A stretch of 40,244 bases of DNA. Origin: Oscillospiraceae bacterium. GTDB lineage: Bacteria > Bacillota > Clostridia > Oscillospirales > Acutalibacteraceae. This document shows positions 18,287-36,935 of the stretch, in pieces (position 1 is the first letter of the stretch; every line of letters begins with the position of its first letter). The notes beneath the pieces were generated by a model, which made no database searches, was not told the DNA's origin, and was given only the letters and a program-made list of their open reading frames with translations. Made by a program: the position numbers and the translations under genes. Location: NCBI GenBank assembly GCA_015066525.1, contig SVOG01000001.1:1-40244 (forward strand), written 5' to 3'.

Positions 18287-18371
18287 GCGGGTATGGTGAA
18301 ACTGGCAAACACGCTGGATTTAGGATCCAGTGGAGCAATCCTTGCAGGTTCAAGTCCTGTTACCCGCACCA
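18287..18371 (+). tRNA. tRNA-Leu, anticodon UAG
   Basis: An 85-nt class II tRNA. The acceptor stem GCGGGTA (18287-18293) pairs with TACCCGC (18361-18367). The discriminator is A18368 and the CCA end (18369-18371) is encoded. The anticodon stem CTGGA/TCCAG encloses the loop TTTAGGA with anticodon TAG. A long variable arm (GTGGAGCAATCCTTG region) and the T arm with GGTTCAAGTCC are present. It reads CUN leucine codons. Confidence 0.96.
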
Positions 18372-33466: not shown

Positions 33467-33480
33467 AGTGTGGTGAAAGC

Positions 33481-36075
33481 ATGAAAAAGATAACACTCGG
33501 CATCCTCGCCCATGTGGATAGCGGCAAGACGACGCTCTCTGAGGCGATGCTGTATTGCGCGGGTGCTATTACAAAACTCGGTAGGGTGGACCACCGCGAC
33601 AGTTTCCTTGATACGAATGCGCTTGAGCGCTCGCGCGGCATCACCATTTTCTCCAAACAGGCGGTATTAAACGCGGGGGACACCGAGTTTACCCTGCTTG
33701 ACACCCCCGGACATGTTGATTTTTCCGCCGAGACGGAGCGCACCCTGCAGGTGCTCGACTATGCCGTTCTTGTCATCAGCGCGACCGACGGCGTACAGAG
33801 CCATACGCGCACCCTCTGGCGACTGCTGTCGAAATACAATGTCCCGTGCTTTCTCTTTGTCAATAAGACCGATTTGGACGGCGCGGATAAAGAGGTCGTC
33901 CTTCAACAACTAAAAACGCGACTGAGCGACGGCTGCATTGACTTTACCGAGACGGACACCCCCGCCTTTTATGAGAACGCCGCTCTCTGCGACGATACGC
34001 TCCTGATGAAATACGATGAGAGTGAAACGCTCACAAAGGACGATATGGTCGCCGCGATACAGAATCGCAGAATTTTTCCCGTCCTATTCGGTTCTGCGCT
34101 GAAAATGGAGGGCGTGGACGCCTTTTTAGAGTGCCTGCGGGAATATACCGAAATGCCTGATTATCCCGCAGCATTCGGCGCGAAGGTTTATAAAATCGCC
34201 GAGGACGCGCAGAAAAACCGTCTCACTTTTATGAAAATAACAGGGGGCACCCTGCGGGTAAAAGATGTGCTCGAGAGTGAGAAGAATACCGAAGGTGAAA
34301 AGGTCAATCAGATTCGTATCTATTCCGGTGATAAATTCACCGCTGTCGACGAGGCACAGGCGGGCACGGTCTGCGCTGTAACGGGCATCACCTTTGCCAA
34401 AAGCGGCGACGGTATCGGTGCCGAGGGTGACGCGGGATTGCCCGTTCTCGAGCCCGTTCTGACTTACCGACTTGAACTTCCCGACGGCGTGGATACCCAC
34501 ACGGTGCTTTCAAAGATGAAGCTGCTTGAAGCAGAGGACCCGCAGCTGCGCGTCGTCTGGAACGAGCGCCTCGGTGAAATTCAAGTACAGCTGATGGGTG
34601 AAATTCAGCTCGAAGTCCTGCGAGCGCTGATTGCCGAGCGTTTCGGTTTTGAGGTGCAGTTTGGCAGAGGCAATATTATCTATAAAGAAACCATCGCCGA
34701 CACCGTGGAGGGCGTCGGACACTTCGAGCCGCTGCGCCACTATGCCGAGGTGCATCTCATCCTCCGTCCCGCACCGCGCGACAGCGGACTGGTGTTTCGG
34801 TCGGAGTGTAAGGAGGATGTCCTCGATAAGAACTGGCAACGCCTGATACTGACGCACCTTTATGAAAAGACGCATATCGGCATTCTCACCGGCTCGCCGA
34901 TTACCGATATGGAGATTGTGCTTGCCTCCGGCAGAGCACATCCGAAGCATACCGAGGGCGGCGATTTCCGTCAGGCTACCTACCGCGCGGTGCGCCATGG
35001 ACTGAGGAGTGCCGAGAGCATTCTGCTTGAGCCTGTATATGACTTTGTCCTCGAGGTGCCTGCCGAAAATATCGGGCGCGCAATGGCGGATATTCAAAAG
35101 ATGAGCGGCACTTTTGAGCCGCCTGAAACCCTCGGTGAGTTCACTCTCTTGAAGGGCACAGCGCCCGTCAGCGAGATGTGCGATTACAGCCGCGAACTCG
35201 TCCGTTATACCCACGGCAGAGGAAAGCTGTCGACAACGCTGAAAGGCTACGAGCCGTGTCATAATGCCACCGAGGTGATAGAGGCGATGGCATATGACTG
35301 CGATGCGGATGTTCAAAACACCGCCGATTCGGTATTCTGTTCCCACGGCGCCGGATATAATGTGCGCTGGGATGAGGTAAAGAGCCATATGCACCTGCCA
35401 AGCGCTCTTTCTTCGCCGAAGAAGCATACCGTTGCCGAAAATGTGCAAAAGACATTTACCTCGTTGAAATCGCAGAAGGATATCTTCGCTTTTGACAAGG
35501 AACTGATGCAGATATTTGAGCAAACTTATGGACCGATTAAGCGTCGTACGGCGTTTGACACCGAAAATGTATCTGATACGCCGCGCAAGAATAATACGCC
35601 CGCACCGAAACAGAAAGTAAAGCCGCGCTATGAGGGTGAGGAGTATCTCCTCGTAGACGGTTATAATGTCATTTTCTCGTGGGATCATCTGCGCGACCTG
35701 AGTGAGGAGAGTATCGACGGCGCGCGCGAAACGCTGATTAATATTCTCTGTAATTACCAGGGATATCAGAAATGCGAGGTCATTCTTGTTTTTGACGCCT
35801 ATAAGGTGAAGGGGAATACCCGCGAGATTGAAAAGGTCAATAATATCCATGTCGTTTATACAAAAGAGGCGGAAACCGCCGATATGTATATCGAAAAGGT
35901 CTCTCATAAACTCGCAAAGCGCCACAAGGTGCGCGTCGTGACATCTGACGCGCTCGAACAGTTAATCATCCTCGGCAATGGCGCACTGCGTGTTTCGTCG
36001 CGCGCATTTCTCTCGGAGGTACAGGAAGCTCAGCGTGAGATTCAGCGCATTATTGACGCGCATACCAATACCTGA
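33481..36075 (+). CDS. TetM/EF-G-like translational GTPase fused to a YacP/Rae1-type NYN ribonuclease
   Basis: 864 residues. Residues 1-about 660 form an EF-G/TetM-type factor: G1 AHVDSGKTT (10-18), G2 RGIT (52-55), G3 DTPGH (74-78), G4 NKTD (128-131), then domains II-V, including ELVRYTHGRGKLSTTLKGYEPCHN. The loop that in TetM contacts the tetracycline site (YSPVST before PADF) reads AHPKHTEGG here (around 486-494), so resistance is doubtful. A linker (about 660-718) leads to a C-terminal NYN domain of the YacP/Rae1 kind (720-864) with LLVDGYNVIF (Asp726), VFDAYKVKG (Asp772), ETADMYIE (Asp801) and LGNGALRVSSR. Rae1 of Bacillus cuts mRNA in the ribosomal A site. TetM-like proteins reach about 640 residues, so the extra 200 are the fusion. 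The likely job is ribosome-linked mRNA cleavage; this is inference. Confidence 0.9.
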   Translation: MKKITLGILAHVDSGKTTLSEAMLYCAGAITKLGRVDHRDSFLDTNALERSRGITIFSKQAVLNAGDTEFTLLDTPGHVDFSAETERTLQVLDYAVLVISATDGVQSHTRTLWRLLSKYNVPCFLFVNKTDLDGADKEVVLQQLKTRLSDGCIDFTETDTPAFYENAALCDDTLLMKYDESETLTKDDMVAAIQNRRIFPVLFGSALKMEGVDAFLECLREYTEMPDYPAAFGAKVYKIAEDAQKNRLTFMKITGGTLRVKDVLESEKNTEGEKVNQIRIYSGDKFTAVDEAQAGTVCAVTGITFAKSGDGIGAEGDAGLPVLEPVLTYRLELPDGVDTHTVLSKMKLLEAEDPQLRVVWNERLGEIQVQLMGEIQLEVLRALIAERFGFEVQFGRGNIIYKETIADTVEGVGHFEPLRHYAEVHLILRPAPRDSGLVFRSECKEDVLDKNWQRLILTHLYEKTHIGILTGSPITDMEIVLASGRAHPKHTEGGDFRQATYRAVRHGLRSAESILLEPVYDFVLEVPAENIGRAMADIQKMSGTFEPPETLGEFTLLKGTAPVSEMCDYSRELVRYTHGRGKLSTTLKGYEPCHNATEVIEAMAYDCDADVQNTADSVFCSHGAGYNVRWDEVKSHMHLPSALSSPKKHTVAENVQKTFTSLKSQKDIFAFDKELMQIFEQTYGPIKRRTAFDTENVSDTPRKNNTPAPKQKVKPRYEGEEYLLVDGYNVIFSWDHLRDLSEESIDGARETLINILCNYQGYQKCEVILVFDAYKVKGNTREIEKVNNIHVVYTKEAETADMYIEKVSHKLAKRHKVRVVTSDALEQLIILGNGALRVSSRAFLSEVQEAQREIQRIIDAHTNT

Positions 36076-36081
36076 TATAAT
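36053..36081 (+). promoter_or_regulatory. Internal extended -10 promoter for the PARG gene
   Basis: TTGACG (36053-36058), 17-bp spacer, TGATATAAT (-10 at 36076-36081). The -35 lies inside the 3' end of the GTPase-NYN gene. The start would be about 20 bp before the PARG ATG. Confidence 0.7.
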
Positions 36082-36107: not shown

Positions 36108-36935
36108 ATGACGAATCTGGAAGAAGAACTCATTGAGTCGTTTCACAATACCGTTCGGGCGTTTACGAAATACGATGATTTAATCCGCGCCACCAATCAG
36201 CTTGTGGACCGTACGCTCGTTTATTTCGAGAATTATGCTGTGATTGAGAAACCGATTAAGCGGCATAGAACGATTGTTACCGTCACTCCCGATACCACCT
36301 TTCATTGTGCGAAACAGTATGTTGACGGGCATAGCACGGTTGCCGTCCTGAATTTTGCTAACCCTTATCAACCGGGTGGCGGCGTCGAACAGGGCGCTGT
36401 GGCGCAGGAGGAGTGCCTTTGCCGCAGCAGTAATCTCTACGCTTCGCTGACAAGTCCGTACATACTGGCGAATTATTATGACCGTAATAATCGCAAGAGT
36501 TCACCCTTTTCGACGGATGCGGTCGTCTATTCAAAGGGCGTTACCGTCTTTAAGTCAGACGACATTATCCCCGTAAAACTCGACAAGTATTTTACCCTCG
36601 ATGTGCTGACCTGTGCGGCGCCGTATTACAGCCGTACTTACGGTCTCTATGATACCAAACGGTATCAGCGCGCCTTTTATCGCCGCATTCGTAATATTCT
36701 CGAAGTTGCTATCGGAAACGGCGTCGATGTGCTTGTGCTCGGCGCGTTCGGCTGCGGTGCGTTTAACAACCCGCCCCAGATTGTCGCCGAAGTGTTCCGC
36801 CGTCTCTTGATAGAAGAGGGATATTGCCACTATTTCAGCACCGTGACCTTCGCGATTAAGTCGGGCGGCGAGAATGATAATTTCGAAGTGTTTTACCGTA
36901 TTCTCGACACAACCGCGGCAGAAAATGTACAGTAA
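36108..36935 (+). CDS. Bacterial-type poly(ADP-ribose) glycohydrolase-like macrodomain protein (TIGR02452/DUF2263 type)
   Basis: 275 residues. The family signature is complete: VAVLNFANPYQPGGGVEQGA then AQEECLCRSS, giving GGG (90-92), a 7-residue spacer and catalytic QEE (100-102) as in bacterial PARG. The macrodomain core continues with LDVLTCAAPYYS, GVDVLVLGAFGCGAFNNPP and the last strand VTFAIKSG. These enzymes remove or process ADP-ribose chains. It begins 32 bp after the GTPase-NYN gene with AAAGGGGG as ribosome site, and has its own promoter as well. The pairing suggests ADP-ribosylation of a ribosome-linked target or a general stress module; neither is shown by the sequence. Confidence 0.88.
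   Translation: MTNLEEELIESFHNTVRAFTKYDDLIRATNQLVDRTLVYFENYAVIEKPIKRHRTIVTVTPDTTFHCAKQYVDGHSTVAVLNFANPYQPGGGVEQGAVAQEECLCRSSNLYASLTSPYILANYYDRNNRKSSPFSTDAVVYSKGVTVFKSDDIIPVKLDKYFTLDVLTCAAPYYSRTYGLYDTKRYQRAFYRRIRNILEVAIGNGVDVLVLGAFGCGAFNNPPQIVAEVFRRLLIEEGYCHYFSTVTFAIKSGGENDNFEVFYRILDTTAAENVQ

Follow-up and report, generated by a model that had tools for sequence, protein, structure and literature searches.

A translational GTPase fused to a Rae1-type nuclease domain in Clostridia, and its near-exclusion with free Rae1

An 864-residue fusion of a translational GTPase and a NYN domain

We analysed a stretch of 40,244 nucleotides from an Oscillospiraceae bacterium (assembly GCA_015066525.1, contig SVOG01000001.1, positions 1 to 40,244; hereafter the window), which encodes a protein that joins a translational GTPase, related to elongation factor G (EF-G) and the ribosomal protection proteins of the Tet type, to a C-terminal NYN domain of the YacP/Rae1 family. 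The gene is a single open frame, 33481-36075 (+), which starts with ATG, codes for 864 amino acids (aa) and has no internal stops. A preliminary description of this DNA had seen in it an EF-G/TetM-like factor running straight into a NYN domain, and this layout was recovered by open reading frame (ORF) analysis and Pfam domain search. The NYN_YacP match (PF05991) that the description anticipated for the C-terminal residues lies at residues 723-860 (E 6.9e-50, 169.7 bits against a cut-off of 24.6), while residues 4-596 form a complete EF-G/Tet-type GTPase, with five Pfam domains all above their cut-offs. The features of the gene are as follows.

33472..33479, +, possible ribosome-binding site GGTGAAAG ahead of the ATG at 33481 (sequence, read by eye)
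33481..36075, +, fusion gene, 864 aa translational GTPase plus NYN_YacP/Rae1 domain (ORF and Pfam; full-length relatives)
33490..34149, +, G domain, aa 4-223, with G1 AHVDSGKTT, G3 DTPGH and G4 NKTD (Pfam GTP_EFTU, 4.6e-50; motifs)
34180..34413, +, domain II, aa 234-311 (Pfam EF-G_D2)
34450..34665, +, domain III, aa 324-395 (Pfam EFG_III)
34672..35013, +, domain IV, aa 398-511 (Pfam EFG_IV)
34711..34752, +, domain IV tip loop 1, aa 411-424, GVGHFEPLRHYAEV, different from the Tet loop (group consensus comparison)
34930..34986, +, domain IV tip loop 3, aa 484-502, GRAHPKHTEGGDFRQATYR, different from the Tet loop (group consensus comparison)
35023..35268, +, domain V, aa 515-596 (Pfam EFG_C)
35269..35400, +, GTPase C-terminal extension, aa 597-640, present in fused and unfused members and not in the five Tet sequences compared
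35401..35640, +, linker, aa 641-720, with pLDDT below 50 at 647-671 and 687-713
35485..35529, +, helix within the linker, aa 669-683, with E674 and I678 conserved
35641..36072, +, NYN_YacP/Rae1 nuclease domain, aa 721-864 (Pfam match 723-860)
35656..35658, +, Asp726 codon (VDGYN)
35794..35796, +, Asp772 codon (FDA)
35881..35883, +, Asp801 codon (ETADMYIE)
35947..35949, +, Asp823 codon (TSD)

Asp726, Asp772 and Asp801 are found where the preliminary description had placed them and, together with Asp823, are kept in 92/92 aligned fusions, of which 91 are distinct in sequence. When searched alone, the NYN part aligns over 138 residues with the solved YacP chains 5mq8 and 5mq9 (E 1.3e-28). For the GTPase fold the best Foldseek match is 8p2g (E 4.1e-53); the structural match lists span residues 1-615 and barely probe the NYN part, the assignment of which is sequence-based. 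The predicted structure (pTM 0.65) does not fix the orientation of the NYN domain relative to the GTPase. Judged by its G1, G3 and G4 motifs and domains II-V, the predicted product is an EF2-type translational GTPase, and by its profile score and catalytic Asp residues it is likewise a predicted member of the NYN_YacP family. The GTPase C-terminal extension may in addition hold a metal site, with Cys593 and Cys620 invariant, His622 kept in at least 90% of sequences and His594 as the majority residue.

The preliminary description would have fallen had the frame arisen from a frameshift or from an assembly join between two genes. Both can be excluded, because 24 further genomes encode a product of the same full length with 51-71% identity, and the fusion is also present on single-contig genomes, including G628, G489, G427 and G481 (genomes, loci and families carry our own G, L and f numbers). 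At least 80 named loci, kept out of at least 589, have matches that begin no later than residue 56 and extend to residue 840 or beyond. Among the matches listed, the nearest named relatives are metagenome-assembled genomes of uncultured Ruminococcus and Oscillospiraceae (64-70% identity), and the family also reaches Ruminococcus flavefaciens FD-1, Intestinimonas butyriciproducens, Anaerovorax odorimutans and Fusibacter sp. 3D3. The host genome (1.64 Mb, 66 contigs, 73.9% complete) contains the fusion as the sole NYN_YacP gene found. In a sample of 295 genomes from the order, 101 have a NYN_YacP match, which lies in one frame of at least 833 residues in 95 and represents fusion pieces in four more (G150, G193, G205, G275), the remaining two being G107 and G215. 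At the scale of the phylum 31 of 398 genomes match the family, and fused genes also occur in families outside the class of the window.

One genome, G424 (61% complete), carries two fusions. Broken fusions at L237, L238 and L239 represent natural breaks or sequencing errors; the break lies between GTPase and NYN domain in G621, near the end of domain V in G344 and within the GTPase part in G601. An unverified “Bacteriophage sp.” record (L248) contains a fusion gene with a GTPase part almost identical to that of G229, and more probably reflects bacterial DNA binned as viral than a gene of a phage.

Fused and free Rae1 rarely share a genome

Within a sample of 391 genomes from the class, 138 encode the fusion and 101 a free Rae1, and only one (G611) has both, against about 36.8 expected by chance (Fisher p = 1e-22, shared descent ignored). 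For these assignments all 249 genomes with a NYN match and all 165 with a GTPase match were classified by the length of the frame and by a search for the GTPase; split or contig-edge genes (G344, G511, G621), an ambiguous GTPase piece (G422) and eight genomes less than 90% complete were left out of the count. A few of the 138 fusions are in pieces at contig ends, and the free Rae1 frames have 160-216 residues, apart from one of 342. Second NYN matches in G427, G489 and G528 were considered as free Rae1 and rejected, as they score about 21 bits, below the cut-off. Five families contain both fusion-only and free-Rae1-only species. On an RlmB tree of 49 genomes, 7/7 independent pairs go opposite ways (p 0.016); entry to this test was confined to genomes carrying one form or both, which favours opposite pairs, and we therefore treat it as support rather than proof.

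The GTPase also occurs without the NYN domain, in 22 genomes of the class and never alongside the fusion, and 15 of these 22 have a separate Rae1. This association (odds ratio 3.4, p 0.011, descent ignored) comes mostly from family f65 and is absent from the order sample (0/14); we mention it without leaning on it.

In a tree of 25 fused and 27 free NYN domains, the fused domains form one clade together with a single free Rae1 (L105, 8787-9359, in G529), and a grouping of all 25 fused domains is not rejected (p-AU 0.09). L105 lies away from rlmB and sigH, retains the basic tail described below and falls within the fusion clade (100/96); its genome also holds a separate unfused GTPase. It is possibly a member of the donor lineage, or a split fusion.

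The rae1 slot between rlmB and sigH is empty or decayed in fusion-only genomes

Free rae1 has a preferred position. It stands directly before sigH in 15 of the 16 loci examined, with rlmB adjoining in 13 and three genes away in two, and mrnC (13 loci) and cysS (10 loci) are close by; these neighbours were named by eye from the sequence. Seven free-Rae1 genomes with rlmB adjoining sigH, G611 among them, contain an open frame of 168-176 residues in the slot. None of the 24 fusion-only genomes with rlmB beside sigH has an intact rae1 there. Five of these slots contain clear decayed pieces of the gene (G319, 63.2 bits; G445, 51.6; G404, 45.4; G487, 35.0; G379, 32.7), where the best of 15 letter shuffles of each slot reached 18.5-20.4 bits. 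G379 was at first scored as Rae1 in the slot, an assignment rejected when the match proved to be a decayed piece with stops. Six slots are marginal, 0.4-5.7 bits over the best shuffle (G374, G628, G347, G423, G509, G577), and 13/24 show no rae1 remnant in this search against shuffles. The five decayed slots span families f46, f51 and f78, and rae1 is therefore decaying in genomes that bear the fusion. An arrangement of rlmB beside sigH in the same operon was not seen in ten genomes examined from the order of the window, and for this reason the slot is unreadable there.

The near-exclusion and the emptied or decayed rae1 slots support a Rae1-like job for the fusion. The link that the preliminary description had drawn between its NYN domain and Rae1 is likewise supported.

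The GTPase module is distinct from the Tet proteins compared

All 25 members scanned match the NCBIfam tet_protect profile (best E-value 1.2e-134). The window protein scores 430.3 bits against this profile, where the cut-off is 775, and 299.9 bits against the NCBIfam EF-G profile, where it is 659.4; it shares domains G and II-V with EF-G and remains below both cut-offs. In a tree of 70 sequences the fused and unfused GTPases form one clade (100/100), apart from the five Tet references included (TetM, S, W, O and OtrA; Tet(Q), Tet(T), TetB(P) and others are absent from the tree) and apart from a second clostridial Tet-like group. At the tip of domain IV the three loops of the family read GHFEPLRHYAEVHL, CSEDxLDRNWQRLILTHL and GRAHxKHTEGGDFRQATYRAVRQGL, whereas their Tet counterparts are PPNPFWAS, GYLNQSFQNAV and YGLYYSPVSTPADFR. 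The consensus was drawn from 92 fused, 27 unfused, 11 second-group and five Tet sequences, and that of the fused and unfused forms departs from the Tet-type loops PPNPFWAS, YLNQSFQN and YSPVSTPADF. Because it forms its own clade outside TetM/S/W/O/OtrA and has different domain IV tip loops, the GTPase does not qualify as a Tet, with or without the NYN domain, by the sequence tests run. From TetM and TetO the fusion thus differs in its loops, its added C-terminal extension, its separate clade and its sub-cut-off score.

The second Tet-like group (L221-L231; 632-658 aa, about 31-36% identity to the query, loop HTHPxDF) is also placed outside the named Tet references. Among 72,556 plasmid records, 1343 match the query, mostly via Tet, EF-G or another GTPase part, and two cover more than 80% of it, one of these being a 518-kb Monoglobus record. 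An unfused relative on Ligilactobacillus salivarius plasmid pHN3 (L241, 3403-5920) covers 74%. It is annotated as a tetracycline resistance protein of the TetM/TetW/TetO/TetS family, as the preliminary description had guessed for such genes, and one fused relative is annotated “translation factor GTPase family protein”. L241 adjoins genes for rpsN (S14) and a “putative metal homeostasis protein”, and a context of zinc starvation is conceivable.

Free Rae1 has a basic tail that most fusions lack

A basic LEKxR(R/K) end is present in 18/30 free Rae1s and 1/92 fused proteins by a strict pattern, and in 29/30 and 8/92 by a looser one. At the C-terminal end 37 of the 92 fusions are shorter, that of the window included, with 139 residues from the VDGYN Asp to the end as against 162-166 in 16 free Rae1s. 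The catalytic Asp residues and the NYN family are common to the fusion and to B. subtilis Rae1/YacP (5mq8, 5mq9), which is a small free protein; the fusion carries a GTPase and is without the basic tail of its free relatives. Free B. subtilis Rae1 is about 170 residues long, and from its number residue 166 presumably belongs to the tail. In passages of PMC6613710, R166P is among the Rae1 suppressors taken as loss of function. We infer that the tail helps free Rae1 to reach the ribosome and that the GTPase took over this task. The window protein has no LEKxRR-like tail and its gene does not precede sigH; both are traits of the free form as seen here, for which there is no official definition, and their absence leaves the claim that the fusion works like Rae1 unaffected.

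Gene neighbourhood of the fusion

No recurrent neighbours were found among 101 clustered fusion loci, although many contigs are short and the clustering rule was strict; since the commonest neighbouring family within three genes occurs in only six of the 101, the fusion has no operon partner. A PADLOC search gave no match, and the suggestion in the preliminary description of a defence role is not supported on these two counts. Terminator-like hairpins within 300 nucleotides (nt) upstream precede 8/96 fusions and 26/879 other genes. A drug-induced leader was considered on this basis and was not used, the signal being weak and ambiguous, as such a hairpin may end the preceding gene.

Relation to earlier reports and possible function

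The architecture itself has been in print since 2015. Passages of Atkinson 2015 (PMC4342817) describe, for ten Clostridiales species, Tet proteins that carry a YacP-like NYN domain, with the same architecture and taxonomic range as found here, and propose ribonuclease (RNase) activity as an antibiotic resistance mechanism. Unlike that filing within the Tet subfamily, our analysis places the GTPase outside the five reference Tet proteins and finds that the fusion nearly excludes free Rae1. The fusion is not described in the passages checked of PMC8547433, PMC7180214 and PMC1780047, and our literature search, beyond the reach of which part of the Rae1 literature lies, found no further paper on the fusion and no functional work on it. 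What is new here is the separate GTPase clade, the near-exclusion with free Rae1, the emptied or decayed rae1 slots and the difference in the tail.

We consider it reasonably probable that the fusion acts as an endoribonuclease of the Rae1 type, brought to the ribosome by the EF-G-like GTPase in the same chain, and that it displaced free Rae1 in fusion-bearing Clostridia. Genomes without free Rae1 repeatedly encode a single chain that conserves the residues of both activities. In EF-G and TetM, domain IV enters the A site of the ribosome. Rae1 is reported to attack mRNA in this same site (passages of PMC12320835). The preliminary description had envisaged a nuclease held on the ribosome under GTP control; its architecture stands, while simultaneous occupancy of the A site by domain IV and Rae1 probably does not. 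Since the two would be unable to share the A site, an order of “clear, then cut” is proposed. From its family, the GTPase module would be expected to dock at the factor-binding site of a ribosome that has paused or stalled and, like EF-G and TetM, to insert domain IV into the A site. GTP hydrolysis would reset the A site and domain IV would depart, after which the NYN domain, on its mostly disordered 80-residue tether, could gain access to the vacated A site, or to the A site of the neighbouring ribosome, and cut the mRNA there as free Rae1 does. The ribosome would be rescued and the mRNA would decay. More tentatively, and with somewhat less than even confidence, we suggest a quality-control machine in which GTP hydrolysis by a Tet-like GTPase, the domain IV of which has a chemistry of its own, frees a blocked A site and the tethered Rae1 then cuts the exposed codon; this one-chain, GTP-powered and ribosome-delivered mRNA endonuclease would repeatedly have made free Rae1 dispensable in gut Clostridia.

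Several observations weigh against displacement of free Rae1 by a GTP-controlled nuclease. The Fisher value is uncorrected and the choice of genomes for the paired test favoured its outcome, as noted above; G611 retains both forms. An unfused GTPase occurs without any NYN gene in 7/22 genomes of the class and in 14/14 of the order sample (two in both samples), and 85/101 free-Rae1 genomes have neither form of the GTPase, so that neither part strictly needs the other. Most genomes of the order lack the family (173/295 fall below its threshold and eight more have only the second Tet-like group), and its function is therefore not essential. On one and the same ribosome, a docked Rae1 would be expected to clash with domain IV. 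The exclusion could also follow if something other than the fusion had made rae1 dispensable; against such an unrelated loss stands the repeated pairing within families.

Other functions can be set against this reading. An RNase that processes stable RNA, with the GTPase as a stress or rescue factor, would agree with the proximity of free rae1 to rlmB and often to mrnC, and maturation of rRNA or tRNA was an early proposal for NYN/YacP domains (cited in passages of PMC4342817). We regard this as unlikely, as Rae1 of B. subtilis, the characterised member, is described as cutting mRNA endonucleolytically in the A site (passages of PMC12320835 and PMC6613710). Ribosomal protection against tetracycline or another A-site drug, with the NYN domain adding an RNase step as proposed in 2015 in PMC4342817, draws on the presence of Tet ribosomal protection proteins among the nearest named families, but the 430 bits against a cut-off of 775, the divergent domain IV loops, the separate clade, the lack of recurrent neighbours in fusion loci and the only two of 1343 matching plasmid records that cover more than 80% of the query make it rather unlikely too.

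It is also conceivable that the two halves do not cooperate and that fusion only fixed two useful genes in one transcript. The long disordered linker and the unfused GTPases without a NYN gene (7/22 in the class, 14/14 in the order) would fit such an arrangement, as would the apparent renewed loss of the NYN domain in G239, G271 and L. salivarius, the tree positions of which are weakly supported. The conserved linker helix (E674, I678) and a basic Rae1 tail that is mostly missing in the fused form only argue the other way, and we think a lack of cooperation quite improbable. Least probable, in our estimate, is an anti-phage or abortive-infection factor that would cut mRNA on ribosomes during infection. 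The architecture of a ribosome-directed nuclease and the patchy distribution may hint at such a role; the lack of a PADLOC match and of recurrent neighbours in 101 loci, as well as a housekeeping gene as the partner in the exclusion, count against it.

The fusion ties the way in which Rae1-type nucleases select ribosomes to a translational GTPase, which provides a natural single-chain probe for this choice and makes GTP-aided cutting of mRNA on ribosomes directly testable. Displacement by the fusion would explain the lack of free rae1 in many Clostridia. For resistome annotation, genes now named as tetracycline resistance or “translation factor GTPase” (two annotated records) may prove to be mRNA quality-control factors.

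Other features of the window

The melibiase gene upstream and the PARG gene downstream of the fusion in the window were not found in the loci of 83 relatives. An alpha/beta hydrolase of the window is matched by a gene that precedes the fusion in one congener, and the SNF transporter of the window is matched in two other loci. The microbial PARG-type gene lies just downstream of the fusion at 36108-36935 (+) (PF10021, 6.6e-33), and a promoter-like site at 36053-36081 (11/12 matches) overlaps the 3' end of the fusion gene. A tRNA gene at 18287-18368 (+) is the only Rfam match in the window above the gathering score.

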